A stretch of DNA of 64,000 bases from assembly GCA_003024785.1 (NCBI GenBank), contig PUQB01000396.1:26051-90050 (forward strand). Direction: 5' to 3'. Made by a program: the position numbers and the translations under genes. Numbering within the stretch: position 1 is the first letter of the stretch; every line of letters begins with the position of its first letter. The notes under the pieces were generated by a model that did no database searches, was not told the DNA's origin, and saw only the letters and a list, made by a program, of their open reading frames with translations. This stretch comes from Selaginella tamariscina. Its lineage: Eukaryota > Streptophyta > Lycopodiopsida > Selaginellales > Selaginellaceae. Below are positions 1 through 28,417 of the stretch, one piece after another.

Positions 1-553
1 ATATGAGTTGTTCTTCCGGGTTGTTATTATTGAAATCCAACCCAGAATATGTTGAACCATCTTTGCCGTCTTAATTCAGATGTTCGCCACCTCACGAGGG
101 ATCCAGGATACAATGTGCCATTAGGTGAAACCTCTGTCACAACTACACCCACAAAGTCGGACCCTAGTTTCTCTTCTGACACTGCTTCCATTGGATTTAT
201 AGCTGTGATGATGCCTCTTCCGACTTCAATCTCACGAAGAAAGAGAATCACCTCATCCATACAGCAGGCAAGCCATCATCTGGTAAACTCGTGCTACTAT
301 TTGTTTGTGACTCTGCATATTCTGTGTCAGCCTTGACTTCATCCAAATTCCACAATACAGGAGAACCCCTCCTCAAATTCCATTCCCAGAACCTCAACAT
401 GTTTGTAAATGGTGTTCACCCATACGTACACACAAGATCCTTGGGCAATATTGTGACATGATGCATTATTATCTCGAACTTCCACAGTTCAGTGCCAACT
501 ATCTCGTTGTTCCGAAGAAGACATACTTTATCTCCAGTATTAAACATATTGTC
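1..553 (-). pseudogene. DUF7869-type transposase-like gene, 5' exon fragment (A1)
   Basis: This is the upstream coding exon of the same gene seen at 58857-61906, read on the minus strand and cut by the window edge. The exon appears to start after a CAG splice acceptor at 554-556. It encodes a G-D-K-V segment and then a second module, best preserved at 27-260, containing VGRGIIT...LGSDFVGVVVTEV. This resembles the DUF8039-like module found in plant transposon proteins (GDxV, then a short G-x-G turn and a V-x-V strand). Single-base losses relative to other copies near 264-268 and 500 break the frame, so this copy is probably not functional. The catalytic part lies outside the window. Confidence 0.6.
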
Positions 554-689
554 CTGCACATAAATAATTGTATTATTTATGATATCTGTTTATGCAATAT
601 TTCTAAGAAATCTGAATTACGGTTACTTAATAATATGCATATGCAATAATACATAATTATGTTTAGAGATAATATCTCATGTTTGATTA

Positions 690-1225
690 ATACAACTGAT
701 GGGCGGGATTAATCCCGCCCACGAATCCCTCCGACGAGGAACGGTCAGCGGATTAATCCCGCCGCCGACTCAACCCCTTCGGAGAGAGTCGGCGGGATTA
801 ATCCCGCCCACAATTCTTACGACGGGGAATGGTGGCGGGATTAAACCCGCACATAACTCTCTCCTAAAACTATGATTTCAAAGAGATCTCGGATAAATCC
901 TGTCCCCAAATCTTTAAAACAGGGAAGTGGTGGCGAGATTAATCCCGCCACCCCTTCCCTGCCTCCTAAAATGGTTGGCGGGATTAATCCCGCCGACAAC
1001 TCTTTTAATAAATTCTGGTAACTCTTCATCAGTTGAGAAGGTTATCGCGGGATTAATCCCGCCACTCTTTTTCAGTGGCGGAGAAGCATTGCCCGGGAGA
1101 GATGGTGGCGGGATTAATCCCGCCACCTCTTCGAAGAGGCCAAAAAGAAATGGCCGGATTAATCCCGCCGCCCGGTTAACCTAGAATATTAAGTTAAAGG
1201 ATATTTAAACGGGATAAATCCTAAC
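690..1225. repeat. Palindrome cluster I (A1), GGCGGGATTAATCCCGCC units
   Basis: About ten to eleven perfect or near-perfect copies of the 18-bp palindrome lie here, spaced roughly 35-70 bp apart, with unrelated-looking spacers. Many differ by one base (for example GGCGAGATTAATCCCGCC or CGGATAAATCC). The cluster sits about 140-670 bp upstream of the first recognised DUF7869 exon, which is transcribed away from it. Inverted copies of the same cluster are at 12800-13410 and 58010-58725, and a direct copy is at 21100-21780. The long open frames here, with GGINPAA or AGLIPP repeats, are by-products of the motif. Confidence 0.93.
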
Positions 1226-2760
1226 GGAATATTTATAATCCTAATGCATTCCTAAACCCCTAAATTGTAATTTTAAGAGAGAATGTAAGAGAGTGAATCT
1301 TTATAAGTATTTTTAAATTGTTTATAATACTTACTTGTAAACAGCACTGAAGGCGCCGTGCTTTCCTATAAAGAATAGCACCCAATTTAATCTCGCCCTG
1401 AGATGATCACTATGAAGAAAAAAGAAGATCTAAAGAGTGAAAAATACAGAAATGAAGAAACCCTTGCCGAAGAAAGAACCAGATCTGAATTTGAGTGGGA
1501 AATTAAATGCATTTTCAAATTTACATGTCAGACCGACAATACATATGTCAGAAATTCAAATTTTTTTAAAAAGAACAGAAAATAAAATTTAAGATGAGTT
1601 GACACAAATATCCGACACTCTGACATATATACTCTCCAGTTCCAATGAGTATTTTAAAATTGCATTTAATGTTATTCAAGTGATTCAAGCTGTTTAATAT
1701 TACGAAATTTTAGACTATATTCTACATTCTTAGTATTCAAGTATATTATATTATATATATATATATATATATAAATATATACTTATACAATAAATAAATT
1801 GATATATATATTATGTATCATTTAAAATATATTCATAGTCTGTTTATTATATTATTTTCTTAATTACTCGAGTATTTAGTTTTCATTTCCTAGTATCAAT
1901 GGGATATTCTTTATATTTTATTAATATTTGAAGAATATTCTAATATTAAACCTGATATCATAATTAAATTAGTCTTGTTCTTAATTATTGCAGTAATTAT
2001 TCTACATTTGTATAATTAATGGGATTTTCTCAATTAATTTGTTATTATTTCAAGAATATTCATGTGTTAAACCTTATTATCAATATTAAATTAATACACA
2101 CTATGAACATATTTTAAATTATACATATAAATACATGTCATTTTATCTAATATATAGTCATATATAGTTTTAATAATATATATATTAATATTTCCTTAAT
2201 TACTTGAGTAATTAATCTTCTTTATATTAATGGGATATTCTTTATTATTTTCTTATTATTCCAAAATATTCCAATATTAAACATGATATATGATAATTAA
2301 TTTAGTTAATTATTTGAGTACTTAATTTACATTTGTATATTAATGGGATTTTCTCAATTAATTTCTTATTATTTCAAGAATATTTCAATGTTAAACCTTT
2401 TTATCAATATTAAATTAATATATATTAAAACTATATATGGCTATATATTAGATAAAATCATATATATTATGTATAATTTAAAATATGTTTCATAGTGTGT
2501 TTATTAATATTATTTTCTTAATATTCGATGTTTGTTTTGCACACATATATAAACACAATCATAAATTTACACACGCATTAAGAACTTACAAAAACACATA
2601 TGCACACACATGCACAACCCTAAACCAAACTGAAGAAATAGGTTGCTTCTTTATTGAAAACATCATGTTCAACGCATGTATGATATATGTACTCAATCTG
2701 TGTGACTGTATGTAACACATTGAATTTACATGTGTAATATTTATATTAAGCTTGTTGGGA
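1226..2760. other. AT-rich central spacer of A1
   Basis: Very AT-rich DNA with (TA)n runs near 1750 and many short motifs such as GAATATTC and TTAATTAA. Apart from the small frame at 1345-1585, no coding sequence is visible. The same stretch recurs inverted at about 11287-12780 (A2) and 56860-57980 (A4) and direct at about 21780-23300 (A3), so it is a stable part of the element. Sub-blocks near 1900-2100 and 2220-2420 resemble each other, pointing to an old internal duplication. Confidence 0.7.
1345..1585 (+). CDS. Conserved small charged protein or exon of the element (A1)
   Basis: A short lysine- and glutamate-rich frame follows a good CAG splice acceptor at 1342-1344. The conserved core begins MKKKEDLKSEKY and includes EFEWEIKC and DNTYV. 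The frame ends with TAA at 1583-1585. A missing T near 1397 breaks the upstream part, but the segment from the ATG at 1409 stays open. Counterparts are at 12415-12631 (A2), 21905-22132 (A3) and 57593-57834 (A4). A3 has an in-frame 18-base loss, A4 is fully open and A2 has a frameshift. No known family is recognised. It points towards the ParB gene, so it could be a far-upstream exon of that gene rather than a separate one. Confidence 0.4.
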
Positions 2761-2762
2761 GC

Positions 2763-2798
2763 AAACCCTAAACCCTAAACCCAAACCCTAAACCCTAA
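2763..2798. repeat. Interstitial telomere-like repeat (AAACCCT)n
   Basis: About five near-perfect units of the plant telomere repeat AAACCCT lie in the AT-rich spacer. Shorter runs are at 23867-23884 (A3), and single AAACCCTAA boxes recur around 3200-3300, 26140-26240 and 56180-56290. They are part of the element and do not show a chromosome end. Such telo boxes are also known plant promoter motifs. Confidence 0.85.
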
Positions 2799-2799
2799 T

Positions 2800-3643
2800 T
2801 GTAACACAATGAATTTACTCATGTAATATGTATGTATGTGTGTGTATACACGTGTGCATGTATTATATGTGTACTCTGTATGTATATATGTGTACTTTCT
2901 GTCTTCTCTCATACATACACACCATGCATGATCTATAATATGTACTCGGTCTCTTTAATATTATGTACTAATATGTGTGTTAGTCTGTGTGTATACACGT
3001 TGTGTATGTATATATTATGTGTATTAATAATGCAATGTGTATGTATTTTGATACACATGAAACTTTAACACTCTCATGGACACACACATGTTAAATCTCT
3101 GCATGATTTATATTTTGAGGTGTATGTGATATACACCCACGCACACGCACGCGCTAAAATATAATGAAAGAATATTCGTTTAGGCGAATCTATATTTTAT
3201 TCTTTTTAGGGTTTAAGTATATTCTCAGAAGGAATATTCTATTAGGGTTAATATATATATTTAATTCCTTTAGGGTTAGGTATATTCTTAGGGTTTCAAG
3301 AGGCGGCGGCTGTGAAATCGGCGGCGGCGGCTGTGCACACAGGTGAGATCTGTGTGTGTGTGTGTGTGATGTATGTATATATGTATAGGAGTGTGCGTAA
3401 TAAAATTTATTTATTAGTTTTATCTCTCGCACACACACGCACCTCCTGTGTATGTATATGTGTGTGTGGTGTGTGTTTGTTTATCTGTATGATTTTATTG
3501 TTTCGCTCACACACGCATACACACGATATACATATACACATATATATATATACCTATAACATATATACATACATATATTATGTGTACCAGTATCTGTAAA
3601 ATTTTTTTTATTGATCTATCTCTCCCACGCACACGCACACTGC

Positions 3644-3683
<40 letters not shown>

Positions 3684-4380
3684 ATATATATATATATAAT
3701 CAATGCATATTAACAAATAGTATACAACACTAGTTTATATATATGCTTATATATTCATATGGTTATATATCTATATACACACATATATATATGTGTGTGT
3801 TTATCTGTATAATTTTATTTATTTATTAGTTTTATCTCTCGCACACACACGCACACTCCTGTGTATGTATATGTGTGTTGTGTGTTTGTTTATCTGTATG
3901 ATTTTATTTGTTTCGCTCACACACGCATACACACAATATACATATACACATATATATACCTATATACATATATACATACATACAACACTAGTTTATATAT
4001 ATGCTTATATATTCACAGACTCTCTCTCTTTTCTCTATAGATTATATATCTATATACACACATATATATGTGTGTTTATCTGTATAATTTATTTATTTAT
4101 TAGTTTATCTTTCGCACACACACGCACACTCCTGTGTATATATATGTGTGTGTGTGTTTGTTTATCTGTATGATTTTATTTGTTTCGCTCACACGCATAC
4201 ACACGATATAACATATCACACATATATATACCTATGTACACACATATATTAGTGTACCAGTACTGTATAATTTTATTTATTTATCTATCTCTTGCACACA
4301 CACGTACACTCCTATACATATATACATACGTACATATATATATATACACACACACAATTATATATGTGTGTTTTTTTCTC
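2800..4380. repeat. Microsatellite region (TG/CA, TA) of A1
   Basis: Dense (CA)n, (TG)n and (TA)n tracts are mixed with a repeated block of about 250-300 bp containing TTTATCTGTATRATTTTATT and CTCGCACACACACGCACACTCCTG. The block occurs at about 3410-3560, 3800-3960 and 4080-4260. One unit of the CATACATACACACCATGCATGATC repeat, expanded in A3, lies at about 2900-2945. Cys-, Tyr- or His-rich open frames here are low-complexity artefacts. Inverted counterpart: 55460-56500. Confidence 0.85.
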
Positions 4381-4395
4381 GCTAAGCCCCTCGAG

Positions 4396-6125
4396 CGGCG
4401 GGATTAATCCCGCTGCTATAGGTTTATAGCCTCGGCGGCGGATTAATCCCGCCGCTATATGGTTGGGGCCATGGCGGCGGGATTAATCCCGCCGCTCTAC
4501 GACAAACCGAAGAGCGGCGGGATTCATCCCGCCGCCCATAACCTGCGTGAGGGCCTCGGCAGCGAGATTAATCCCGCCGCTCACCCATGCTCTGCGCGGA
4601 ATGCGGCGGGATTTATCTCGCCGGCAATGGCCTGTGTGAAGGTTCTAATGGGTGGGATTAATCCCGCCGGATTCCGCGCAGGCATTACAGGGGATGGGCG
4701 GCGGGATTAATCCCGCCGCCCATGGCCCTTCACGCAGGCCATGGGCGGTGGGATTAATCCCGCCGCCAGGGAATTCACGCAGGACATGAACGGCGGGATT
4801 AATCCGGCCCCACGCTCATGCCCTTCGTGGAGGGCGGCGGGATTAATCCCGCCGCTCAGGCACTTCCGCAGGATATAAGCGGCGGGATTAATCCCGCCCC
4901 CACCCATCCCTGTTCAAAAATGCCGCAGCCAATATAATGTGTGAACCTTCATTACCCATTGGTATGTTGAATCAATCCCGACTAACTCTGTATGAGACGG
5001 AGAAGGTTTACAAAATACCAATGGAGGAACTGAGAAGGGTGGTGGGATTAATTTCACCATCCCTTACATGGTGGGCGGGATTAATCCCGCCGCGTACGCA
5101 TGCCCTGCGCGGAATCGGGCGGGATTTATCCCGCCGCCATTGGCCTGCCTGAAGGGCCTAGGCGGCGGGAGTAATCCCGCAAGATTTCGCACAGGGCATT
5201 GGCGTTCGGCGGGATTAATCCCGCCGCCCAAGGCCTTCACTCGGTCCCTATGCGGCGGGATTAATCCCGCCGGACGCCAATTCCCTGCTCGGAATCGGCG
5301 GGATTAATCCCGCCGCCATTGGCCTGTCTGAAGTGCCTAGCGGCGGGATTAATCCCGCCCGATTCCCAGCAGGGAATTGGCGTCCGGCGGGATTAATCCC
5401 GCCGCATAGGGACCGAGTGAAGGCCCTGGGCAGCGTGATTAATCCCGCCGAGTCTTCAATGCCTGTTGGAGGAATGAATCCCGCCACCCTTCCTTTGTTT
5501 TCTCCATTAGTGAGTCGGACCAATCCAAACGTTTCTGTCTGAGACGTAGAAGGTTTTCAACATACCAATGGAGAGAATTGGGAAGAGTGGGGAAATTCAT
5601 TTAACCATCACTTACATGGTGGGCGAGATTAATCCGCCTCCTTTCTGGAGTCACTGAAGGGGTGTGAGAAATAAATCGCGCAGGGAATTGGCGTCCGGCG
5701 GGATTAATCCCGCCGCATAGGGACCGAGTGAAGGCCCTGGGCGGCGGGATTAATCCCGCCGAGTCTTCAATGCCTGTTGGAGAATGAATCGCCACCCTTC
5801 CTTTTTCTCCATTGGTGAGTGGACCAATCCCAAACGTTTCTGTCTGAGACGTAGAAGGTTTACAACATACCAATGGAGAGAACTGGGAAGGGTGGGAAAT
5901 TCATTTAACCATCCTTACATGGTGGGCGAGATTAATCCCGCCTCCTTTCTGGAGTCACTGAAGGGGTGTGAGAAATAAATCCTGCCCAGTTCTCTCTGAG
6001 ACCGAGAAGGGTGGCAAGATTAATTCCGCACTCCCGTTCAAGGCCTCCAGAAAGGTGGCGAGATTAATCCCGCCCACTCTTTCAGGAGGCATTGAAGGGG
6101 TGGCGAGATTAATTCCATGTGAATA
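4396..6125. repeat. Palindrome cluster II (A1), about 30 GGCGGGATTAATCCCGCC units
   Basis: This is the densest palindrome array in the window. In the first part the dyad centres fall at about 4405, 4444, 4484, 4524, 4569, 4613, 4659, 4708, 4755, 4800, 4844 and 4889, a spacing of 39-49 bp. Spacers are related GC-rich sequences (versions of CCTTCACGCAGGCC in both orientations), and some are palindromic, for example around 4709-4750. A duplicated block of about 300 bp (around 5390-5640 and 5680-5945) lies in the right half. The array ends about 290 bp upstream of the first recognised ParB-gene exon. Inverted copy: 54440-55455. Confidence 0.93.
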
Positions 6126-6221
6126 TATATGTGTATTAGTATATATAAGTTGCATATCTCATTTTATTTACTTTTATCATCTTATCATAATATTTCGAGT
6201 AAAAGCTAGGAATCTATGTAA

Positions 6222-6308
6222 AACTGTCCAGAGCTCACATTTGTGGTGGTTCTAAAACGAAATGTTATCTTTCTTTTGCACTAACACAAATGTGAGCTTC
6301 GGACAGTT
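6222..6308. repeat. 24-bp inverted repeat (stem-loop) upstream of the ParB gene
   Basis: The arms at 6222-6245 and 6285-6308 pair in 22 of 24 positions (core CTCACATTTGTG / CACAAATGTGAG) around a loop of about 39 bases. The same structure is kept in A4 at 54252-54275 and 54313-54336, where 23 of 24 positions pair. It lies about 100-190 bp before the first recognised ParB exon. It could be a transcribed hairpin, a promoter dyad or a small fold-back insertion predating copy divergence. Confidence 0.75.
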
Positions 6309-6411
6309 AATTACGTCTACTTCTCTCTGTGTATTATTTTTGTATATTCGGGTTTATACAAGTGTGTGTGCGTTTTTATATAATTTATATTTATAGTGTA
6401 TTATTTTGCAG

Positions 6412-9400
6412 AAGGACGATTTGATCAAACAAGGAGATCGAGTCATTAGTATGGAGTCGTCGTCAAATTCTGGGTAAGAATTAAAATAAAATCTGTTATA
6501 CTCGGATACTTGAACTAATCATTTTTGTATTCAGATGTGGAATTGAGGTGACATTAAAGACAAGAGCAGGAGAAGAGATGGGCAGGGGGATTCTGGAATC
6601 AACTTGGCCATATTTTAAGATAAATGGGAAGCGCATTGGAGCAACCATGGTTGCTGTCAAATTAACCTCTGTCACATCTCATGGACAAGCAAAACAATGG
6701 AAAGTAGATTCGCTAGTCAAGCACCCGAAAGCAGGCTGCGAACCCAGATTGGACGATGCTCGACAGATATGCCTTGTTCCATCCAATGTCACGTTCTCGG
6801 ATCCAGAGGTCGTCAGTTACAACATTAATCTCGGGTGGTTTTGTCGACTTGTGGATAATGACGTTCACGTGTTCACTAATGATGTTGACCTTGGAGTTCT
6901 TCTTCAACTCAACGAAAGCCCATCTATGGAGGGGATCCATCTGGATGTCTACTTCGAAGATCTTCAGACTCATCGAGTAGGTGTATTGTCAGGAGATATT
7001 GCTTCACAATACAGAAAATCAGCAAGTGGAGCAATCTTCCCTCTTCACATTGAAGAAGAACACAGCGACATCATAAGGGAGATTGAGAAGGTGGCTCGGT
7101 CTCAGGTTCTCTACAGATCACGTTCAATTTGCTTAGGAAGCTTCGGGAGCTGGAGAGTGTGCCGAGAACACTAGAACAGCTGCAGTCGGGGATCACACAT
7201 GTTGATTCGGATCGCAAAAGAAAATCATCAATCGTTTTGTCAGCTGCACCTGTGGCATCTCATGCTGCAATAAGTCACAAGGAAATGATGTTGGATGATA
7301 AGATTTATCCTTGTAGGGTTAAATATTGCAGCGTCAACCCAAACTTCAATTACAGGCCACTCAACCAGGAACGTGTAGCTGAGCTCATGGAGAAGATGAA
7401 GGACGACAATTCTTATACCGTTCCACATAATGCTGTTTTGTGTCCATACTATGAAAGAAGAAGGGTGCTGACAAAGTCTGGATCACAACACCAGAACAAC
7501 TCATGAAGATTCAGACGGAGAATAAAAGATCTATCAAGTACTACATCATTAGTGGCCAGCACACAATAACGGCAGCCCAACGACTTCTCGATGAACACAA
7601 CAAAGGAACGATGGCAACAAAACTTTCCGAGCATACCCGTGAGAAGCTGACAAAAAGATCGGCGTTTTTAGCTAAGCCGAATCTCACAATCGAGCAGTAC
7701 CATAAGTTATCGGCGGAATGGGACGCTGCCGACACCAACCACTACAACAGCAAAATATGGGAGAAGTTTAAACACACGCGAGCCGTGTGGGAATCTCTTC
7801 AGCGACCACAAAGAGCTACCGCAGGGAATACACAATCTGCGGAATACCGGGTAAGCAAATTGTTTGGGCGGGATTTATCTCGCCGGTATATTAATCTGTC
7901 TTTTTCCTCAGAGAGTTGAAGAAATTGCAGCAGTTGATTTTGCCCAGGTGGGCGGGAAGGAAACATCATTTCTGATGATGTTGATTTCTTGCCCCGAAGA
8001 TAGGATCTTTGCCAAATGGTTGGGGATTATGGAATCCTTTTCAAAAGGAACACTGAAGAAGAAGCAGACAAGTGAAGGGGAGCCCTCAGAAAAGTCTGCA
8101 AAGAAACCCAGTAAGACGCCGAAGGCTAAGTCTGTTCAATCTACAAAGGATGTAGACAACGATTTCAAGCTCACATGGTTGAAGCCTTTAAATGGAACAA
8201 CGATGGAGGAGATGGAAGTCTTGGCTGATTTGGTGATCGATGGCAAACTACAAATTAATAACAGCAGCCCAACCTCTCCTTTTCATCTCAAGGCAATGGA
8301 GTTGAAGACGGTCAGGCATTTCAAGGAGTGGTTGGGAATACACTGCCACAAACTGGGTTGGACCTCGACTTCAACATATGAAGAGGTAGCAAATATTTGC
8401 ATGTGACGAACGATGATATGCTTGTCGAATGGGTGAACCAATCGGAAGATCTAGGCAAGAATCTATTGCACGCCAACGCCAAAAAGGAGAACATTGGGAT
8501 GACGCCTTCTCTTATGGCAGTCCTTCAGCAGCGGAGAACCGAATTGAACCTTATAAAGGAGGATGCTACGAATCACGACAAGCCCTACAGATGTTTGTTG
8601 TTAGATTCGGAGACTTTATGGGGTAACATCACTGCTTGTAGGAAACCGTTTCAATTGTTCGTGATGGATCGGCGGGTGTCAAAAAATCTTTCGACAGATA
8701 GGGCACTAGAGGATCTGGTGGAGAAACTTAGCCGTGCAAGCATATACATAGAAGGTATTTATTATTGAATTCATGCTTGCGCTCTTCACTGATACCTACT
8801 TTTTCAGGTATTTATTTCTTGATTCTTGCTCATGTCACCGATACTTTTGCCTTCGCCTTCGCCAAGAAGAATAGACATCGTTGGACAGGATTTTATATGA
8901 ACGATGCTAATCCCAAGTGCATTGATACTGTTGTTCACTTGGTTGTTAGGAATGCGCCAAACAATTTCAAGCTTCCAAATGACTGGCCAGGCATCTGTTT
9001 GCACTCCAACGGCCCTGAACCTCCATCCGATACACCGATAGGTATGAGTGACGTATTCGGCAATGTACGTTATCCAAACATTACAAGTCAAGCGGCACGG
9101 AGCATCGTCAACTTGATCAGGGGTCCTCACAGTGATGCGTGGGTTTTTGACTACTGCACTAGGGGGTCCGTCTTGAAGGAGTGTTACCTTCGGCATACAT
9201 GTGTGTTTGCCGTTGAGAAGGATAAGACCATGGTTGAGGACCTGAACAAGTGGATAGATTGGGTCTCAACTGAGTACCCCAACGAATCCATAAAGGCGTA
9301 TTTGAGAAAGTTCCCTCCAGATAAGTGCGATAGCTCTGAAGGTGAATCTGGTTCAATCTCGGAGTCTGAGAACGAACATCAATCAGATATTAGACCGGAA

Positions 9401-9553
9401 GTTATCTCGAGGAGTACAGAACATTCGCACACTCCAGGACCCATGGAAACATCAATAGAAGATGCAGAAGATCTTGAACCATCTCACAAGCGGCTTAGAC
9501 CTTCTTCGCCTCATTCAGAAGGTAATAGCGAAGAAGAATTGATAATGAATTGA
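6412..9553 (+). pseudogene. ParB-like / DNA-methyltransferase-like protein gene (A1), frameshifted
   Basis: Exons inferred from GT-AG sites are 6412-6473, 6535-7850, 7912-8754 and 8808-9553. An in-frame ATG is at 6451, but the frame is open back to a CAG acceptor at 6409-6411, so an earlier exon is likely. The order is: a GDRV...MGRGILEST...MVAVKLTSV module (DUF8039-like); a ParB/sulfiredoxin-like segment with YCSVNPNF, RPLNQERVAELMEKM and YYIISGQHTITAAQRLL (7330-7600); a Lys/Ser linker; a beta-class methyltransferase-like C-terminus with WVFDYCTRGSVLKECYL and VFAVEKD (9138-9220); and an acidic Ser/Glu tail with HKRLRP. Indels near 7085-7190, 7447 and 8387 break the frame. Copy A4 lacks the last two of these breaks but has others. 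The usual DPPY and FxGxG motifs are altered, so methylation activity is doubtful. Confidence 0.68.
7851..7911 (+). other. Intron carrying a palindrome-like element
   Basis: This is a 61-base GT-AG intron between codons that join in phase. Inside it, 7865-7886 reads GGGCGGGATTTATCTCGCCGG, a variant of the cluster palindrome. The A4 copy has the same intron, with the motif at about 52686-52709. It is the only palindrome copy noticed inside a gene. Confidence 0.75.
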
Positions 9554-9757
9554 TAGAGTGATGAATAGTTGTAAATGAGTGTAACATAAGGCATTTTTGT
9601 ATATTTCTTTTATATTTGTACAGAAAATAAATTCTCAAGGATTAATGAAGCTTTTAGTTCAAACATGGGTCACACATTAACAAGGTAAATAATATACCTT
9701 GATAATTTTAAGGTCAGCTAATTATCATTTTGCAGATGTAATGAAATAATTGAGAAC
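9554..9757. other. Spacer between the ParB-like and phosphatase-like genes
   Basis: About 200 bases, AT-rich, with no coding sequence seen. AATAAA at 9626-9631 may serve as a polyadenylation signal for the upstream gene. The spacer is conserved in A3 at about 26770-26965. Confidence 0.5.
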
Positions 9758-9810
9758 ATGGATTTTCAGCATTGCCATGAGGTAAGAGAGGGGTTTGGCG
9801 ACAATTTCTT

Positions 9811-10999
9811 GTGCCACATGTCAGAATGACAGAGTTCATGCAGGAAATGGATAATAATGCAGCTCAAAACATCGTTACCATGGGGGCCACTTCAGTTTTT
9901 GCATCATCATTTTTATTGGCTTCAGTTCCGAAATCAATTTCTTCAGCGCATGCAATATCTGAATCTTGTAAGGATGATGTACAATTAAATGATGAAGGGA
10001 TAGGCAACGAATAGTGGCAACGGATAAATGTGAAAGGGAGCAAACAAGTGATTTGCAAAGTATTCAAGAGGCAACGCTATCTCATGTTACTCATGGCCAT
10101 ATTGTGTTGTTGGATGTCAATGGTGTTCTGCTTCATCGACAAAGGCCCGAGGATAGAAAAACAGAAATCAAACAAGGAGATTTCATTCCTTGTCATGGTA
10201 AATTTCGATATGATATTATTTTTCGTCCAGGGTTGGATCGTCTCTTTCAAAAGCTTAAGGAGATGGGTGCGCTTGTGGGGATTTGGTCATGCATGCAGAT
10301 TCATAACTTAACACCGCTGTTGAGTTTACTTAAGAAACATTGTAGTGTTGCAGAAGAGGTGATTCGTAAAGATTGGATTTTTGACCAGCGAATGTGTATA
10401 AACCTCTCGAATTTCACAATATAAGAAAGGAAAGCAAGCCATACTTCTTCAAGAATGAAAGAATAATTGGGACTCATGGGGAGATCAGTCGCTTAAGGAT
10501 AACGAAGAATGCACATATCTTAGTAGTAGACGACTCTCCTCAGAAGGCTATGCTCAACCAAAACATTGCTTGTATTCATCCAATCACTTTCGATCCATAT
10601 TCTGATATCGATATCATGGATGAGCTAGTGAACTACTTGGATACGTGCCTCAGAAAGAAGAATCTCGAAAATTTTTGTGAGCAGTATCCACCGTATCATA
10701 CATTTCCTGAAGCTTTTCTTTCTCGTGATATTGAATTTTATAAAATGAAGGATAGCAACCGGGCGCTTTATAATATTATTCTTAAGGAACGTCAGTTTTT
10801 AGATGAGCCTTTATGCAGACCTTCTCTTATCACATCTTATGTATTAACAAGGATGGCAACTCCCAATTGCATTCGTGAGAGTGTTAAGTGGTGGCAACAA
10901 CATCAAGATATTGACCAAAATGATTTGATTAATCCGGAGAGTGATGATTTAGACAAAATGAAAAGATTTCTTTGTATGATAGAAAGAAAGTATTTATAA
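9811..10999 (+). pseudogene. FCP1/SCP-like HAD phosphatase gene (A1), frameshifted
   Basis: The protein matches the FCP1/NLI-interacting-factor phosphatase fold. It has IVLLDVNGVLLH (about 10090-10125) where the family has DxDx(T/V), then FRPGLDRLFQKLKEMGALVGIWS, and later ILVVDDSPQKA (10520-10552), the usual third motif. The second aspartate of the DxD motif is replaced by asparagine, which would be expected to impair catalysis. Frames change near 10010 and 10395; copy A3 reads straight through the first point, so the breaks are recent or sequencing artefacts. The tail after the HAD core (to residue about 390) has no recognised domain. The start is uncertain: a short upstream frame at 9758 ends in a conserved stop. 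The role in the element is unknown. Confidence 0.7.
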
Positions 11000-17591: not shown

Positions 17592-17616
17592 TGCAAGTTG
17601 TAACTAAAATGGCATG
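17592..17616. repeat. Terminal inverted repeat, end B (A3)
   Basis: Starts TGCAAGTTGTAACTAAAATG; one G of the following GG-GCATG is missing relative to other ends. Outside it, CTCATAATA is L sequence that also flanks A4 (inverted, after 62406). Confidence 0.82.
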
Positions 17617-18103
17617 GCTATAGTCTCATTTTTTTAATAATTAGCAATTTTAGCTATTTAATTAACATTTTTTTAATATTAAAGGAATATTCTTTAAAAT
17701 ATATGTTTGAAAATAAAATATTCTTTAGAATATTCTATTATTAATCGACACTTTAATAAATTATAGCATTCATTAAACAAAAATTAATAACATTATAAAA
17801 GTAGAAGGTATAAATTATATAATATATATTTTAAGATTGTATGGGCCTAATATAACAATTAAGGAAGAGACATTATAAAAATAATTAAAATGTTATTAAA
17901 ATATAATATTTAAATATAAAATTATAATTAAAAATTTGTAGTAGTAATAATATATATATATACAAATCCTATAATAATAAATAGTCAATCTTCCATATCG
18001 TTTTAAATTTATATAGTTAAGTAAACAATTTGGTACTATTATTAAAGAGTTTATAATAATTATGAATATTAAATATACGATATTTTATAATTTTGTAATT
18101 GCT
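17617..18103. other. Terminal AT-rich region, end B (A3)
   Basis: Inverted counterpart of 16502-16979. Nothing coding is seen. Confidence 0.6.
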
Positions 18104-21086
18104 TTAAGCTTCAGAAAACATACATTCCCTTGCAGTTTTGTTAATCGTGACTTTATCAACGCTTCTTAACATCCACCCATACGAAATGGATTTAACATTT
18201 ATAAAACATGCTGGGTCTTTTTGATTGGGAGACCATGTTTTCTAGGCATCCATTATATCTTTCGCTCTCTTCTCGTGTCGCCTTTTTTTGTGGTTTGAAC
18301 TATGCAACCTTAACAATACTATTTTTATTATTACTTCAGGTGTGTCGATAATTTGACCCATCCAAATAGCTGATTATATGACATCTGGAGTAATGAGAAC
18401 CATCATTAGTTTTTGAAGATCCTGGCAACAATCAAAGTATGCTTTAGGTTTTTGGTTCCTTTGTCCAACAAAGTGTGGGGTTTGCACTTCCACATCACTA
18501 TTGGCTTATGTCGTTTGCTCAGTGATGTCATTTCAATCTCCTCTCGCCACCTTGTTTTAGGCCAAAAAGGGTGTTGCAATTTGTACTTTGTGACAGTAGG
18601 CCCTTCCAACTCTTGAACAACAGTCTCCCAATAGTCAACCACATGCTTATATAGTTTTGAGTAACCAGTTGCCTTATCAGAATTCTTTGGCATCGATTTT
18701 TGAACCCATGCCACATATTTTTTGATGCCATCAATAATAACCTCTTGTTCCTTGAGCTGGGCACTCAATGGAATAGGGTCTGGTTGTCCTTCTGGGAGAA
18801 GTGGCTTTCCATCCTCTCCACTTTTGAAGAGCATTAAGCCCTCTTTCGGTAACCACTCCTGCTCTGATGGCCGTAACTTGTACTGCATAATAGGTATACC
18901 ATCTCGTATGGAGAAAAAGAATTGTAGCGGCACAAGGTGACCAACTAAAGAATCACTCCCTTCTTTTATATACTCCTTGAGAAATTTTTTGAAGTCTAGC
19001 ACCTCAGTCACAAGCAAAGCACAACTTTTTTTGGAGATGCAATTTTCAAAAAGATTCATCATATGCGGTAAAGTAAGTGCACTTGTCCTTTTTGTAGAGT
19101 TGGAGACCTTGCTGAAGAACGCATCAATATCTTCATGAGTGTGACCAACCATAAGGAAACTGAGCGTGATTGTTTCAAACACACCTTTGGCAACAAGCAT
19201 TGACAAGTATGCTAGCACATATCTAGAAAATAAAAGTAAGTATGAGCTTGAGAAACCCTTAAGTAAAATGATTTACCTATTTTTGTTCTCGCCTGCACAA
19301 TTATCCATCTGTAAAAGCAAATGACGAGGAAGCTTATTTGATGTTGAGGACACATGTACACTATTTGAGCTAGATCCCTCCACTGAACCTGAACTCTCAA
19401 CAGGGCCATCTGTTTGTACAGGCTGTTGACAATGCCTCTCATATTCCCAAGTAGCCTCAAGTGCAGACGTGTTCATGAGAGCATTATGTAAAGGTTGAAG
19501 GTGTTGTTTCTTCACTTTGAGATCACTGATAGGACTTGTCTGTGAGTGGGCTTCAAGGTTTCTGAAACACATGGCTAACGACCCAATAGTGAAATTGGAG
19601 TCGCTAGACCAATGTGGAAGTGAAAAGTGTCCATATGACTCACAACGTGTCCATGTGTTAGCACACTGTCAATGAAATCGGAAGTTTCATGACATTTCCA
19701 AGGCACTTTGGTGTTGCAAAGAGCTTTGGAATGCTGGTCTTTGAATGATCCATCTTGCATGGATCAAGCACAGTACTCTGATGGGCGTGACACAGAAAGC
19801 ATGCGGTGTGCATAGTACTGAGACCGACAAGTTTTTGTGCAATCATGTGGGCCTCCATCTTCTTTTGAATGGCAGTGATCTCCACCAAGGTTTTTGCACA
19901 AGCCTTGTAGCCTTCAATGATGTACAAGTGTCACACTTGGAAAAGCTAGAGTGTTTTGCAATCTCCACATCCTTAAAATGAGTATTCCATATGTTGTTGA
20001 AGGTACCAGTGCAGATTGCTTGGAGCCCCATCAAACTGAGGCACTTGTTCACATGTTCACACAGCTTCAATTGAGTGTAGATTGAAGGCAAAACCTTGAG
20101 ATTTTCCCTGACCCTGCATTTGTGTTCGGCATTTGTGAGCATCCTGTCTACATTTGCTTCCACAAAAGCCTTGAGTATCTTATGGCTGCCATAATGTGAG
20201 AGCGGGTTTTGACCAAGCGAGTGTTCCCATGTACTGAGGTTCGCGCTCCATCTAGCCACTCATCCCTCCGACGGTAGAACGTGGTATTTGGGATGCCATT
20301 TATATGTACCAAGCTTTGAAGTAGATGGCCACCTTATTAAATACCATGGATGTACTCTAATAACCTGTGTCCGAGGCCATTCCATCAATACACCTAGTTA
20401 GTGTAGCATATACAAACTCATGCCTTTGCTTTTGGGTGAGCGTACGAAAGACATGTCCATTGGGTAATTTCATTCCGGTCTACCATCTGACAACACTTCT
20501 TCTTGCAGCAGTCAATTGTGAAAATGCTCGTAACACATTCAAAAGATGTAGGATTCATCTTCACCCTCTTGAAGCTTGCAGGGAAGATCTACAACCCATG
20601 AATCGCCTTTTCTTACAATAGGACAAATGCAAGGAACCTCTTCAAATATGAATTGTTCTTCCGGGTTGTTATTATTGAAATCTAACCGAGAATATGTTGA
20701 ACCATCTTACCGTCTTAATTCAGATGTTCGCCACTTCAAGAAGGATCCAAGATGTAATGTACCATTAGGTGAAACCTCTGTCACTAACTACACCCACGAA
20801 ACGAACCCTAGTTTCTCTTCTGACACTGCTTCCATTGAATCTATAGCTGTGACGATGCCTCTCCCAACCTCAATTTATGAAGAAAGATCACCTCATCCAT
20901 CACAAGGCAAGCCATCATTTGGTAAACTCATGCTACTATTTGTTTGTGACTTTGCATATTCTGTGTCAGCCTTGACTTCATCCAAATTCCACAATACATG
21001 AGAACCCTCCTCAAATTCCATTCCCGGAACCTCAACATGTTGTAAATGGTGTTCACCCATACGTACACACAAGATCCTTGGGCAAT
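18104..21086 (-). pseudogene. DUF7869-type transposase-like gene (A3)
   Basis: The C-terminal part (18406-19218) is open for 270 codons, the longest uninterrupted stretch of this gene in the window. It begins at the exon after the intron at 19223-19276 and contains VGHTHEDIDAFFSKVS, SKKSCALLVTEV and a tail with PEGQPDPIPLS. The preceding exon keeps LLLQMDNCAGENKNR at its end. The end of the frame after 18406 and the Cys-rich middle (19700-20100) carry shifts. The N-terminal exon (20640-21086) has several stops and lacks its first part. The motif order matches 58857-61906. The protein is probably the mobility enzyme of the element; this is inferred from the family and from its presence in every copy. 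Confidence 0.7.
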
Positions 21087-21099
21087 CTCATGCTTGATT

Positions 21100-21780
21100 A
21101 ATGCAACTGATGGGCGGATTAATCCCGCCCATGACTCCCTCCGACGAGGAACGATGAGCGGGATTAATCCGTCGCCGATTCCCTGAATCGGCAGAATTAA
21201 TCCCGCCGTCGAATCTTCCTAATCGAAGAGAGGCGGCGGGATTAATCCCGTCGCAGACTTCCTCCGACGAGGAAGAAGCGGCGGGATTAATCCCACCACA
21301 ATTCCTCCGATGAGGAAGAGGCGACGAGATTAATCTCGCTGCAACTCCCTCCAATGAGGAAGAGACGGTGAGATTAATCCTGCCCACAACTCTCTTCAAA
21401 GTTATGATTTTAAAGAGATATCGGGATAAATCCTGCCCATAAATTTTTAAAATAGGGAAGTGGTGGCGAGATTAATCCCGCCACCTTCTCTGCCTCTTAG
21501 AATGGTTGGCGGGATTAATTTGTCGACAACTCTTTTTTAATAAATTCAGGTAACTCTTTATTAATTGAGAGAGTTATCGACGGGATTAATCCCACTGCTC
21601 TTTTTCAGAGGCGGAAAAGCATTGCCCGGATTAATTCTGCTATGGCTATTAAAGAGATGGTGACGGGATTAATCTCGCCGCTTCTTCTAAGAGGCGAAAA
21701 AGAAAGGCCGGATTAATCCTGCCGCCCTAGCTAATTGAGAATATTAAGTTAAAAGGATATTTAAACGGGATAAATCCCTA
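21100..21780. repeat. Palindrome cluster I (A3)
   Basis: About thirteen palindromes of the GGCGGGATTAATCCCGCC family, more diverged than in A1 (for example GGCGACGAGATTAATCTCGC). Some changes are symmetrical: GAGATTAATCTC at about 21327-21338 keeps the dyad. Confidence 0.9.
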
Positions 21781-22300
21781 ACGGAATATATTGTAATCCT
21801 ATTGCATTCCTAAACCCCTAAATTTTAATTTTAAGAGAGAATGTAAGAGAGTGAATCTTTATAATTATATCTAAATTTGTTTATAATACTTACTTGTAAA
21901 CAACACTGAAGGCGTTGTGCTTCCTATAAACAATAACACCCAATTTAATGTCACTCCTGAGCTGATCATTATGAAGAAAAAAGAAAATCTGAAGAGTGAA
22001 AAATACAAAAATGAAGAAACCCTTGCCAGAGAAAGAACCATATCTGAATTTGAGTGGGAAATTAAATGCAAGATCGACAATACTTATGTCAGAAATTCAA
22101 AATTATTGAAAAGAACAGAAAATAAAATTTAAAATGAGTTGACACAAATAACCGACACTCTGACATATATACTCTCCAATTCCAATGAGTGTTATAAATT
22201 GCATTTAATGTTATTCAAATGATTCAAGCTGTTTAATATTACAAAATTTTAGTAATTATTTTACATTTTAATATTCAAGTATATATTATTAAGTTTATAT

Positions 22301-22331
<31 letters not shown>

Positions 22332-23420
22332 ATACATACAATAAATAAATTGATATATTATTATGTATCATTTAAAATATATTCATAGTCTGTTTATTAA
22401 TATTATTTCTTAATTACTCTAGTAATTAATTTACATTTCCTACTATTAATAGGATATTCTTTATTATTTTCTTAATATTCAAAGAATATTCCAATATTAA
22501 ACCAGATTATCATAATTAAATTAGTCTTATTCTTAATTATTTCAGTAATTATTCTACATTTGTATATATTAATGGGATTTCTCAATTAATTTTAATCATC
22601 CAAAATATCCAATACTGTCTCTTTAACATAATAAAATAAATTATTTATTATTTCAAGAATATCGAATGTTAACCTTATTATCAATATTAAATTAATATAT
22701 ATTATTAAAACCTATATATGACTATATATTAGATAAAATAATGTATTATTATGTATAATTTAAAATATGTTCATAGTGTGTATATTAATATCATTTTCTT
22801 AATTACTTGAGTAATTAATCTTCTTTATATTAATGGGATATTCTTTATTATTTTTTTATTATTCCAAGAATATTCCATTATTAAACATGATTATCATAAT
22901 TAATTTAGTTAATTATTTCAGTACTTGATTTACATTTGTATATATTAATGGGATTTTCTCAATTAATTTCTTATTATTTTAAGAATATTCCAATGTTAAA
23001 CCTTACTATCAATATTAAATTAATATATATTATTAAAACTGTATATGGCTATATATTAGATAAAATCATATATTATTATGTATAATAAAATATGTTCATA
23101 GTGTGTTTATTAATATTATTTTCTTAATTATTCGATGTTTGTTTTGTACACATATATAAACACAATCATAAATTATATACACGTGCACACGCATTAGAAG
23201 CACTTACAGAGACACATATGCACACACATGCACAAGCCCTAAACCAAACTGGAGAAATATGTTGCTTCTTTATTGAAAAATCATGTTGAACGCATGTATG
23301 ATCTATATGTACTCAGTCTGTATTATATAACACATGAATTTACACATGTAATATATATGTATGTCTATGTGTATACACGTGTGTGTATATATGTGTACTA
23401 ATATATGCAATGTGTACAAT
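21781..23420. other. AT-rich spacer of A3
   Basis: Direct counterpart of 1226-2760 with (TA)n near 22300. Only the small frame at 21905-22132 is a possible coding sequence. Confidence 0.65.
21905..22132 (+). CDS. Conserved small charged protein or exon (A3)
   Basis: Counterpart of 1345-1585. It is open to TAA at 22130-22132 with NNNTQFN, MKKKENLKSEKY and EFEWEIKC. Compared with A1 and A4 it has an in-frame 18-base deletion after EWEIKC. The splice acceptor CAG is changed to CAA (21902-21904), so normal splicing may be lost. Confidence 0.35.
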   Translation, partial: TEGVVLPINNNTQFNVTPELIIMKKKENLKSEKYKNEETLARERTISEFEWEIKCKIDNTYVRNSKLLKRTENKI

Positions 23421-23424
23421 TTTA

Positions 23425-24035
23425 ATTTGTTAACATCTCTCTCTTCTCTCATACATACACAGTGTCACCATACATAATCCCTTCTCTCATACATACACAC
23501 CATGCATGATCCATAATATGTATTGTCTCTCTTCTCTCATACATACACACCATGTATGATCCATAATATGTAGCCTGTCTCTCTTCTCTCATACATACAC
23601 ACCATGCATGATCCATAATATGTACTATTTCTCTTCTCTCATACATACACACCATGCATGATCCATAATATATAGCCTGTCTCTCTTCTCTCATACATAC
23701 ACACCATGCATAATCCATAATATGTACTAGTTACAATATATGTACTTTGTATGTATATCTATGTATAATATGTGTATGTAAATATGTGTACTAATATACA
23801 ATGTGTACAAAATTAATTTTTAACACTCTCTCTTCTTCTCATACATACACACCATGCATGATCCATCCTAAACCCTAAACCCTATGTAACACATTGAATT
23901 ACACATGTAATATGTATGTATGTATGTGTGTATACACGTGTGTATATATATGTGTACTAATATATGTAATGTGTATGAATTTAATTTGTTAACACTCTCT
24001 CTCTTCTCTCATACATATACACCATGCATGATCCA
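23425..24035. repeat. Tandem repeat, about 60-bp units, with telomere-like motif
   Basis: Units of CTCTTCTCTCATACATACACACCATGCATGATCCATAATATGTA recur at 23449-23720 (about five units), 23830-23865 and 24003-24035, and beyond the solo LTR at 25810-25920. A1 has one unit and A4 about four, so unit number differs between copies. A (CCCTAAA)n run is at 23867-23884. Confidence 0.88.
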
Positions 24036-25796
24036 TGTTAGAGTTTTAACCTAAAGGGCCAACACGTGGCAACACGTGGCTTCCAAGTGGCCATTCGGTG
24101 TCATCACCCTGGTGAGCAACGCTAAGTCTTCCAAGATAACCCTAAGAGTCCGACTTAGAGGCCCAATTAGGCAGAAGACTTAGAGTCCCACCCCTAAGTC
24201 CCCTAAAATGACTATCCCCTGAACCCTAGAGGATAACCCGAGTAGACTTTAGGATCATGTCTTACTAGACCTAGACAGGCTCTTGCCCTAAGCCCACAAA
24301 GGAGATGTGTGTTTCACACATCCCCTCATGACATAGCTAAGGCATCATTACTTACCCCTTGAAGAATCACCCTCATCCGAGAGAACAACCCCTTTAGGGC
24401 GACAAGGTGTACCCTGAACCACGACAACCCTTAAGGGTTTGAGTGGCCAAGTCATACCCTAGACCTAGGGCTAATACTTAGTGAAGACCCGAGTGTGCGC
24501 CGTAGGCGAACACGAGTGTTCTGCTAAGCAAACTCCCTAAGGCTAGGTTTGGATAACCCTAAGTACATGACCTTGTGAGTGCTTCACGAAAAGGCTCCTG
24601 CTAACAAGCTTAGGTTGTTCAACCCTAGATTCCAAGGAGAGCACTCCCCTAGCCAAGTGTGCTTAAGCACACCTAGTTATGAGACCTAACCTCCCTTAAG
24701 CAAATGCCCAAGGCTTAGCACCCTAGTGCGAGCACAAACATGTCTGTATGCTAAAGTATCCAACCCCTTGGCGACAAGCCCATGACACAACCCCAAAGGG
24801 CGTGCCTCATGTATTGTATTGTGTGACGTCTAGCCCAATGTCACATCTCCATGTGACACTGCCTTCCCCGTTGTGGGGTATCATGCCATAGTCCTAAGAT
24901 TCAAGAGTTGCACTAAGTGCCATAAATGTGGCTCCTAAATGCCAACTCTAGAACCCCTCAATTATCCTCAGGACTCGGTAAGGAAACCATGTCAATCAAG
25001 AATCCACAACCATAGTTAGACAAGGACACGAACGTGCCCTGCTTAGCTGTGAGTGTTGCTCTTAAGCTTGATGTGGAGGAGGAGGCCGAAGACAAGCCTC
25101 AATTGACCTCTACCTCTTGGAACATGCATTCCCACAAAGACCTCCCAGGCATGGATTCGCCAACGTTAAGGGTAAGCTACCCCGAAGGTGGGACGTACCC
25201 CTATCATCTAGAAGTGAGGGCGGGCACAATAAAGGGTTGTGCCTTGACGACACAAGTTAAAGCTTGCACCGAGAGAAGAGTAACAAGCTCAGTCATGAAC
25301 CAGGAACCCTCACTCCTACATTCTACCTTATTTATGTGACAGAGCCCCCCCCTCTTTTCCTGAATGTGTATGTGGGCTGGCACAAATTTAGTTAGCCCCT
25401 TATTAAGTTAATGAGAAAGTGCTTAACTTAGCCTAACTCTAACCCTAAAACCCTACCCAAGGGGGGGGGTTTTTAGGGCGTGAGTTAGGGCAATCCTAGG
25501 GTTAGGTCAACCCTAGGGGTGTTTCTAACCCTATTAAACACGCCGAACTCATCTACATTAACCAATCAGCCTAACTGGGACGTCAAAATTGGGGGTGGGT
25601 TTCTATAAGGTAAGTTCTAGCTTTGCTTAGAGTTTCCTGTAAATACCTAATGACACCCGACTGGACCATCATCAGATACCCAAGTGCACTAAGTGGGCAT
25701 GTTTCCTACTACATCTAGGGTCCATCAACATAGTACAGTAGGTAACAACAATCAACATCCAAAGTAAAGGGTCGAGTCATAGTAAAAACTATGACA
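24036..25796. mobile_element. Solo LTR of a retrotransposon with 5-bp target duplication
   Basis: The insert starts TGTTAGAGTTTTAACC and ends AAAAACTATGACA, giving TG...CA ends. It is flanked by ATCCA at 24031-24035 and 25797-25801. The flanks join into the tandem repeat of A3, and no such sequence occurs in A1 or A4, so it inserted after the copies diverged. At 1761 bp it is long for an LTR but within the range of large plant Ty3 families. Internal sequence is GC-richer than its surroundings, with many CCCTAA/TTAGGG words. An open frame of 101 codons at 25034-25339 has no recognisable product. No primer site or second LTR is present. Confidence 0.85.
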
Positions 25797-25801
25797 ATCC
25801 A

Positions 25802-26576
25802 TGTTAATATGTACTATCTCTCTTCTCTCAAACATACACACCATGCATGATCCATAATATGTATTGTCTCTCTTCTCTTATACATACACACCATGCATGA
25901 TCCATAAAATGTACTTTGTCTCTCTAATATTATGTACTAATATGTATGTATGTCTATGTGTATAATACTATGTGTGTATATATGTATTGCTACACATGAA
26001 ACTTTAACACTCTCATGGACACACACATGTTAAACCCCTGCATGATTTATATTTTTGTGGTGTATGTGATACACCCACACACACGCACACGCTGATAATA
26101 TAATGAAAGAATATTCATTTAGGGCAAATCTATATTTTATTCTTTTTAGGGTTTAAGTATATTCTTAAAAGGAATATTCGATTAGGGTTAATATATATTC
26201 TATTCCTTTTAGGGTTTAAGTATATTTTTAGGGTTTCAAGAAGAAAGGTGGCGGCTGTGAAATCCCTCTGTAAAATCTCCCTCTCTCTCATACACAAGTG
26301 AGATCTCTCTCTCTCACACGCACACTCCTGAGTTTATTTATTTATTTTTATTCACATATACATTTGTATCTTAATAATAAAATTTATTTATCTATCTCTC
26401 TCACACACAAGCACACTTCTATACAGACACACACACACACCACACACACACACACACATATATATGTATGTGTGTGCGTGTGTATCTGTATAATTTTATT
26501 ATTTATTAATTTTATCTCTCGCACACACACGCACACTCCTGTTTATCTGTATGAATTTATTTGTTTCACTCACACA
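25802..26576. repeat. Tandem and microsatellite region of A3 up to the deletion point
   Basis: Continues the 60-bp units, then telo boxes (TTTTAGGGTTTAAG) and (CA)n or (TC)n tracts matching about 2930-3560 of A1. At about 26577 it jumps to sequence matching 9361 of A1. The joint lies in a CACACA tract, so microsatellite slippage or microhomology may have caused the internal deletion. Confidence 0.75.
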
Positions 26577-26770
26577 CTGTCTGAGGACGAACTTCAATCA
26601 GATATTAGACTAGAAGTTATTTCGAGGAGTACAGAACATTCACACACTGCATTACCCATGGAAATATCAATAGAAGATACGGAAGATCATGAACCATCTC
26701 ATAAGTAGCTTAGACCTTCTTCGTCTCACTCAGAAGGTAATACCGAAGAAGAATTGTTAATGAGTTCTTA
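26577..26770 (+). pseudogene. 3' end of the ParB/methylase-like gene (A3 remnant)
   Basis: About 190 bp match 9361-9553 of A1 (the acidic Ser/Glu tail, with SRSTEHSHT and EPSHK). An in-frame TAG occurs after EPSHK. All domains upstream are deleted. Confidence 0.8.
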
Positions 26771-27027
26771 GAGTGACAAATAGTTGTAAATGAGTGTAAC
26801 ATAAGGCATTTTTATATATTTCGTTTATATTTGTACAGAAAATAAATTCTCAAGGATTAATGAAGCTTTTAGTTCAAACATGGTCACACATTAACAAAGT
26901 AAATAATATACCTTGATAATTATAAGGTCAGCTAATTATCAATTTATAAATGTAATGAAATAGTTAAGAACATGGATTTTCAGCATTGCCATGAGGTAAG
27001 AGAGGGGTTTGGCAAAAATTTCTTGTG

Positions 27028-28125
27028 CCACATGTCAGAATGATAGAGTTCATGCAGGAAATGGATAATAATGTAGCTCAAAACATCATTACCATGGGAC
27101 CACTTCAGTTTTTTCATCACCATTTCTATTGGCTTCAGTTTCTAAATCACTTTCTTCAGCGCCTACAATATCTGAATCTTGTAAGGATGATGTACAATTA
27201 AATGATAAAGGGATAGGCAATGATATAGTGTCAACAGATCAATGTAAAAGGGAGCAAACAAGTGCATTCAAGAGGCAATGTTATCTTATGTTACCCATGA
27301 CTATATTGTGTTGTTGGATGTCAATGGTGTTTTGCTTCATTGACAAAGGCCTGAGAATAGAAAAAAAAAATCAAACAAGGAGATTTCATTCCTTGTCATG
27401 GTAAATTTTGATATAATATTATTTTTTGTCCAGTGTTGAACCGTATCTTTTAAAAGCTTAAGGAGATGGGTGCACTTGTGGGATTTGGTCATGCATGCAG
27501 ATTCACAACTTGACACCGCTGCTGAATAAACCTCTCGAATTTCACAGTATAAGAAAGGAAAGTAAGCCATACTTCTTCAAGAATGAAAGATTAATTGGGC
27601 TTCATGGGGAGATTAATAAGTTAAGGATAATGAAAAATGCACATATCTTAGTGGTAGACGACTCTCCTCAGAAGGCTATGCTTAACCAAAACATTGTTTG
27701 TATTCATCCAATCACTTTCGACTCATATTCTAATATTAATACCATGGATGAGCTAGTGAACTACTTGGATACGTGCCTCAGAAAGAAGAATCTTAAAAAC
27801 TTTTGTGAGCAGTATCCACCGTATCAAACATTTCTTGACACTTTTCTTTTTGTGATTTTGAGTTTTATAAAATGAAGGATAACAACCGGGTGCTTGACAA
27901 TATTATTCTTAAGGAACGTCATTTTTTAAATGAACCTTTATGCAGACCTTGTCTTATCACATTTTTGTATTAACAAGGATAACAACTCCTAATTACATTC
28001 GTGAGAGTGTTAAGTGATAGCAACAACATCAAGATATTGATCAAAATGATTCGATTAATCCGGAGAGTAATGATTTAAACAAAATGAGGAGATTTCTTTG
28101 TATGGTTAGGAGAAAGTATTTATAA
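27028..28125 (+). pseudogene. FCP1/SCP-like HAD phosphatase gene (A3), decayed
   Basis: Counterpart of 9811-10999. The first motif region (27300-27350), the GFGHACR part (27480-27500) and ILVVDDSPQKAML (27645-27685) are visible. The join from the N-terminal segment at about 27235 is in frame here, unlike in A1. A loss of about 86 bp around 27523-27527 removes the part matching 10320-10400 of A1. Further shifts and stops follow after 27840. Not functional. Confidence 0.72.
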
Positions 28126-28391
28126 AAAATTAACATGTTAATAAGGAAATGATTTCATTTATAATTATGTTTGATAGTATTTTTTAAGTATTGTAAACTA
28201 TTTTTAAAACGAAGAATAATATGAATATTCTAATATTTTAGAAATATTTCTTACTAAGTAAGGTTATTGAAGGATCAATTTATTAATTAATTAATATTTA
28301 AGGCTTAATTACATATTAATTAAATAATTAATTAATAATTAAAACTTAAATATTAATTAGTAATTTATTTGATATTCCCATTTTCACGTAT
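28126..28391. other. Terminal AT-rich region, end A (A3)
   Basis: Counterpart of 11000-11260; nothing coding is seen. Confidence 0.6.
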
Positions 28392-28417
28392 CATGCCCAT
28401 TTTAGTTACAACGTGCA
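28392..28417. repeat. Terminal inverted repeat, end A (A3)
   Basis: Reads CATGCCCATTTTAGTTACAA then CGTGCA. Beyond it, TTAGTGGGAGACTTTTTGAT is L sequence, matching 40993 onward. Confidence 0.82.

Follow-up and report, generated by a model that had tools for sequence, protein, structure and literature searches.

What kind of element sets a transposase-like gene, a gene resembling ParB proteins and DNA methylases, and a HAD phosphatase-like gene between inverted repeats in a plant genome? The question is raised by a 64,000-nucleotide stretch of Selaginella tamariscina (assembly GCA_003024785.1, contig PUQB01000396.1, positions 26,051 to 90,050), hereafter the window, in which an earlier note made from the letters had read positions 1 to 28417 as one large element bounded by inverted repeats. 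Self-alignment of the window reveals parts of four copies (two of them nested) of a single terminal inverted repeat (TIR) DNA transposon of ~14.4 kb. A large transposon with inverted ends is indeed present, as ends that face one another, 4-bp target-site duplications (TSDs) and genome-wide counts of the ends all indicate; positions 1 to 28417 are three copies of it plus a host repeat, not a single element. Taken as a whole, the evidence makes it probable that we are dealing with a family of giant cut-and-paste transposons in a land-plant nuclear genome, equipped with a transposase of the DUF7869 family and with an accessory protein that would act on arrays of palindromes.

The ends of the element are sharply defined. 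The 20-bp motif TGCAMGTTGTAACTAAAATG occurs five times in the window at up to 3 mismatches, against a maximum of 0 in 100 shuffles, in agreement with the earlier statement that the two ends share sequence in inverted orientation. Ends A (TGCAAG..) and B (TGCACG..) are oriented inward; the motif search places them at 17592..17611 (end A, + strand) and 28398..28417 (end B, - strand) in the copy that we call A3, and at 11267..11286 (end B of A1), 16987..17006 (end A of A2) and 62387..62406 (end A of A4), all three on the - strand. Each terminus in fact extends one base further and reads 5'-ATGCAMG, followed outside by the 4-bp duplication, and the element ends are 5'-ATGCAMGTTGTAACTAAARTGGGCATG. 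The earlier note had proposed the terminal repeat as the query for collecting copies. Across the genome examined (300,702,823 bases in 1,391 contigs), matches at up to 2 mismatches number 1,508 for end A and 1,671 for end B, with none for the reversed-pattern controls, and the element is present in more than 1,000 whole or partial copies in this ~300-Mb genome. Among the matches listed for contigs C1 to C213, the perfect ends (77 A and 100 B) form 40 inward-facing pairs at most 30 kb apart, 28 of which, amounting to 26 one-to-one pairs, are spaced by 13.5–15.2 kb; at that spacing there are just 1 outward-facing and 3 same-direction pairs. In one copy (L049), end A is doubled, the two terminal repeats following each other in tandem at a distance of 28 bp.

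Every copy read at both ends (seven of seven) carries a perfect 4-bp TSD: ATAT in C518, TTTG in C727, TCTG in C955, AATA in C914, ACTC in C993, ACGT in C460 and CACT in C845. These duplications adjoin 5'-ATGCA in all seven copies, except for ATACA at one end of the C845 copy; the copies in C1064, C504, C704 and C575, in which end B is absent from the fetched stretch, stand outside this set. From the window by itself we had considered a target duplication of TA or of 3 bp, and abandoned this after reading the ends of other copies. Within the window, A3 is flanked by TAAT on its left (17587..17590) and TAGT on its right (28419..28422), and the empty site, located by sequence and alignment at 40993..40996 in an uninterrupted copy of the host repeat L, reads TAGT; the empty site thus matches the right TSD, and the left copy of the duplication differs by one mismatch.

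The four copies in the window fit together as follows. A1 (1..11287, + strand, by self-alignment) has end B at its right and its end A to the left of the window edge, and contains the phosphatase gene, the ParB-like gene, palindrome cluster II, a spacer, palindrome cluster I and ~415–450 bp of the DUF7869 region. Its end B lies within the spacer of A2, as is seen when the A2 flank is aligned to the corresponding place in A1, A3 and A4; because A1 inserted there, A2 (11288..17007, + strand, by self-alignment and flank alignment) is reduced to its right part, comprising spacer, cluster I, DUF7869 gene and end A. A3 (17591..28418, - strand, by self-alignment and its ends) has both ends, as the earlier note had seen, and is internally deleted, with cluster II and nearly the whole ParB-like gene missing. 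A4 (~51692..62407, + strand, by self-alignment) has its end A at 62407, is truncated in the ParB-like gene at ~51692, and lacks the phosphatase gene and end B. A2 and A3 are oriented end A to end A, with ~570 bp of L between them; L flanks A3 on both sides, again as previously noticed, and its second copy at 40,410–41,217 is uninterrupted at that place. The end A of A4 sits at the same position of L as that of A3, and this common junction suggests that the stretch was duplicated rather than that two insertions occurred.

The earlier note had also described one order of parts common to the four copies. No window copy holds all six parts in one block; the complete order is seen in a copy from elsewhere in the genome, C518 (~14,497 bp), which was read with both ends and runs end B, NIF phosphatase, ParB-like gene, cluster II, spacer, cluster I, DUF7869 gene, end A. 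NIF and ParB-like sequence is present in 8 of 8 copies whose end-B stretches were read (A1 and seven fetched copies), and the association of these genes between the two ends accordingly holds across the copies read, with the proviso that A3 has lost most of its ParB-like gene. The DUF7869 gene is transcribed toward end A, and the ParB/methylase-like gene, which runs opposite to it, and the NIF phosphatase gene toward end B. Tandem units of 50–52 bp (CTTCTCTCATACATACACACCATGCATGATCC...) also occur within the element copies (23481–23729, 25805–25925 and 56501–56694), in numbers that vary between copies. By eye, end A of the copies L025 and L051 adjoins sequence of the ParB-like or DUF7869 gene, and the element appears to have inserted into itself at some sites.

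The predicted transposase is the product of the DUF7869 gene, which lies at 13532..16510 in A2 (+ strand, spliced, bounds mapped approximately from C518), at 18100..21086 in A3 (- strand) and at 58962..61906 in A4 (+ strand), the last two with approximate bounds; self-alignment places the 5' part of the region in A1 at 1..415 (- strand). The joined reading matches the DUF7869 profile (PF25273) at E 2e-47, and removal of a GT-AG intron that follows ENKNR brings back the family motif ENKNRY..GHTHEDID; GHT..D motifs are presumably also a feature of transposases of the Sola superfamily. The model of a DUF7869 relative adopts an RNase H fold whose nearest structures are integrases and transposases, in keeping with the transposase-like character first ascribed to the gene; the structure-comparison table contained no transposase of a giant transposon, and that absence is no evidence. 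Conserved aspartates are retained, with D350/D353, D485 and D525 invariant among the sequences compared; these are candidates for the catalytic residues.

Thirty DUF7869 loci, the best-matching of 40 scored from 2,139 candidates and hence not a fair sample of copies, have a median pairwise identity of 0.991 (minimum 0.896), which, within that same bias toward best-matching loci, points to recent spread of the element. The first long frame (at least 650 amino acids) is open in 15 of the 30, and both long frames in four; for the ParB-like gene none of eight copies is open throughout. Indels of the DUF7869 gene in the window are mostly private to one copy. The ratio of nonsynonymous to synonymous polymorphism (pN/pS) is 0.39 in the first exon and 0.71 in the second, the latter no lower than the corresponding substitution ratio (dN/dS) of control frames from cluster II (0.68 and 0.82).

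The phosphatase gene (9760..10999 in A1, + strand; 26930..28030 in A3, + strand, decayed, with its best piece under the Pfam cut-off; bounds approximate in both) matches Pfam NIF at E 2.5e-9 with 37.4 bits, above the cut-off of 21.8, so that the HAD phosphatase originally suspected is upheld. The catalytic motif of NIF/FCP phosphatases is usually DxDx(T/V); in the stretch LLDVNGVLL of the window the first Asp is kept and the second is replaced by Asn, and we therefore regard the product as a putative enzyme of uncertain activity. A comparison with PDB sequences gave it no match at E<=0.01. Across eight copies dN/dS is 0.48–0.51 for its exons and 0.17–0.51 for those of the ParB-like gene; these are values without a significance test, and set beside the cluster II frames they are signs of purifying selection, such that the ParB-like exons look constrained.

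The ParB/methylase-like gene occupies 6440..9553 in A1 (+ strand, with visible GT-AG introns and frameshifts) and, truncated, 51692..54140 in A4 (- strand); some of its frameshifts are common to copies, and in the C727 copy (L069) a ParB-like stretch is open as a frame of 311 amino acids. By eye, it has ParB-like motifs (NPNFNYRPLNQERVAELMEKMKDD..IISGQHTITAAQRL) and a stretch that resembles motif I of permuted DNA methylases (SIVNLIRGPHSDAWVFDYCTRGSVLKECYL..FAVEKD), the motifs seen in this way being NP..R, IISGxH..AA and VFD.CTRGS. Homology searches lent this label no support: matches were at chance level in PHROGs (E 0.06–0.2), were designed proteins among PDB sequences (E 2.1 and 7.4), and were lacking in phage tblastn and IMG/VR scans, and two protein searches, the first scoring the 7,993 candidates that share most words, returned no relative at E<=10. 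Our own hidden Markov models (HMMs), built from viral ParB (19) and methylase (12) sequences of 21 IMG/VR loci (L012 and L013 were left out of the ParB set, being without the motif pattern used), scored no better than shuffles. HMMs of short, hand-picked motif stretches gave at best a weak signal, with 74 and 96 of 2000 shuffles reaching at least the observed score for the two ParB halves and 33 for the methylase, whose motif pattern is matched by just 4 of the 21 viral loci. For the methylase-like part (8807–9550), a structure predicted from the single sequence was uninformative, with a predicted local distance difference test score of 35.6. The name ParB/methylase-like reflects motif resemblance and the published precedent discussed below; the protein is an orphan.

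The candidate targets of this protein are copies of an 18-bp palindrome, GGCGGGATTAATCCCGCC. At up to 4 mismatches there are 92 sites in the window (21 perfect), all 92 of them within element copies, and five base shuffles gave 1, 0, 0, 0 and 0; the C518 copy holds 38 (16 perfect), with none in its fetched flanks. The exact 18-mer has 27,128 copies in the genome, a total taken over all sites whether or not they belong to this element family, and its reversed control has 0. The sites form two arrays between the diverging genes, one upstream of each, with a commonest step of 44–46 bp. Pattern scanning places cluster I at 702..1169 in A1, 12811..13402 in A2, 21112..21723 in A3 and 58014..58718 in A4, and cluster II at 4397..6074 in A1 and 54450..55446 in A4. 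A single palindrome stands in an intron of the ParB-like gene (7867..7884 in A1, 52687..52704 in A4); six of nine copies keep it unchanged, C993 and C460 have it in altered form, and in C727 it is deleted. Changes in the C518 palindromes are most often C to T (6) and G to A (5), found at positions 5 and 14; they fall at a CHG position, which is what CHG methylation in plants would be expected to produce.

Does the ParB-like protein act on these arrays? Palindromic target arrays are a feature of ParB/parS systems, and the likeness to these and to phage ParB-methyltransferase proteins lies in the arrays and the eye-level motifs; the present protein differs in being eukaryotic and spliced and in showing no profile similarity. 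A serious competing explanation, to which we give somewhat less than an even chance, is that the arrays are passive tandem repeats or binding sites of the transposase, on which the ParB-like protein does not act. Arrays of near-constant step (44–46 bp) can expand by unequal exchange. Two results weigh against a role of the protein at the palindromes: it has no credible profile match, to ParB or otherwise, in Pfam or NCBIfam, and across the window copies the palindromes (0.855) are conserved equally with the rest of cluster I (0.850). Within the C518 copy, however, 19 array units are 0.93 identical over the 18-mer and 0.32 identical over the ungapped 25-bp spacer (shuffled 0.26), which argues that the 18-mer is kept apart from its unit, and the placement of arrays upstream of both genes, with one more palindrome in an intron, likewise speaks against this competing explanation.

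As for the class of the element, inverted ends, a TSD of fixed length with an empty site, and an RNase H-type transposase with acidic residues mark it as a TIR DNA transposon (class II, subclass 1). A 4-bp TSD, found in seven of seven copies, is unlike those of KDZ and hAT (8 bp), CACTA and PIF/Harbinger (3 bp) and MULE elements. MULE TSDs measure 7–12 bp, and the passages available on Sola describe a DDD transposase, a 4-bp TSD, TIRs of 11–1124 bp, some elements longer than 15 kb and an occurrence in moss (PMC10741241), with Sola1 in Physcomitrella (PMC9033089). Our element resembles this superfamily in its TIRs, 4-bp TSD and large size, a likeness of description rather than of compared transposase sequences, and differs in its accessory genes, which are outside the superfamily definition in those passages. 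The earlier note knew of no plant transposon with this gene set, and in the open-licence literature searched we met no report of such an element in a land plant; a precedent exists, however, in the brown alga Ectocarpus, where, in the available part of its description, the 21.5-kb transposon Sola1-1_Ec32 carries a ParB-methyltransferase gene on the opposite strand to its transposase (PMC12477816). Both are giant DNA transposons with an accessory gene opposite to the transposase gene, a ParB-methyltransferase gene in Ectocarpus and here one that resembles ParB and methylases by eye, the likeness being one of gene arrangement; they differ in size and host, and that part of the description mentions neither palindrome arrays nor a phosphatase. 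In the same literature we met no report of a phosphatase or of palindrome arrays, in searches aimed at neither. Captured DNA-modification enzymes are also described, in the portion available, for fungal DNA transposons of diverse kinds, which took up TET/JBP and are thought to escape silencing by it (PMC12730594); there the enzyme is a dioxygenase, and the superfamilies and hosts are others.

Given the Ectocarpus precedent, the element is most likely a land-plant variant of Sola1-like kind; the likeness being one of description, we say Sola1-like rather than proven Sola1. Another or a new DNA transposon superfamily, with a DUF7869 transposase and independently captured accessory genes, seems to us rather doubtful without being far-fetched: several superfamilies produce 4-bp duplications, the name DUF7869 is absent from the papers searched, and the link to Sola consists only of TSD length, size, aspartates and an analogous gene set, to be set against an accessory-gene arrangement that, from the parts available, is the same as in Sola1-1_Ec32 (PMC12477816) and against the reports of Sola in moss (PMC9033089, PMC10741241). 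Proteins resembling ParB and methylases are frequent in phages and large viruses, which brings an endogenous virus or virus-derived element to mind. We disfavour this origin as highly improbable: the genes are spliced, the inverted repeats are short and accompanied by exact 4-bp TSDs, the frames scanned (part of all frames) contained no recognized virion or replication gene, and neither six-pattern scans of IMG/VR nor searches of phages (chance-level E of 8–10 only) turned up a relative.

On the reading that we favour, a Sola1-like cut-and-paste transposon, the DUF7869 protein would be the transposase, with an RNase H (DD[D/E]) core that binds both ends and inserts the element through 4-bp staggered cuts. 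The ParB-like protein would bind the palindromes and possibly methylate the element; once bound, it could protect or regulate the two promoters against host silencing, and the phosphatase may tune host or element proteins by dephosphorylation. A bolder version, which we consider unlikely as a whole, is a self-recognition akin to ParB/parS, in which the ParB-methylase would load on the 18-mer arrays, mark all family copies at once and block or reset silencing of both promoters, with the NIF phosphatase in the same counter-silencing module.

The remainder of the window holds further observations. A SERK/BAK1-like leucine-rich-repeat N-terminus (E 3.7e-5) lies at 32846–33259; 31340–33642, 35012–38838 and 48791–51721 are related pieces by similarity in self-alignment, and 36–38.8 kb and 48.8–51.7 kb are inverted copies, ~94% identical, around a retrotransposon-like region. 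Region 42577–48784 contains two related stretches in inverted orientation, in which reverse-transcriptase-like frames are seen by eye; a 109-bp tandem array occupies 47840–48272. AAACCCT repeats also occur in the window, and together with the SERK/BAK1-like fragment and the reverse-transcriptase-like frames they point to a land plant as host.

These results link DUF7869, widespread but of unknown function, with a transposon whose ends and target duplications are exact. They provide a likely land-plant case of the ParB-methylase transposon type described from an alga, and extend it by a phosphatase gene and by candidate binding sites that form arrays and reach an extreme copy number. The idea of a transposon that recognizes and modifies itself can thereby be put to a direct test, with a single protein and a single 18-bp probe.

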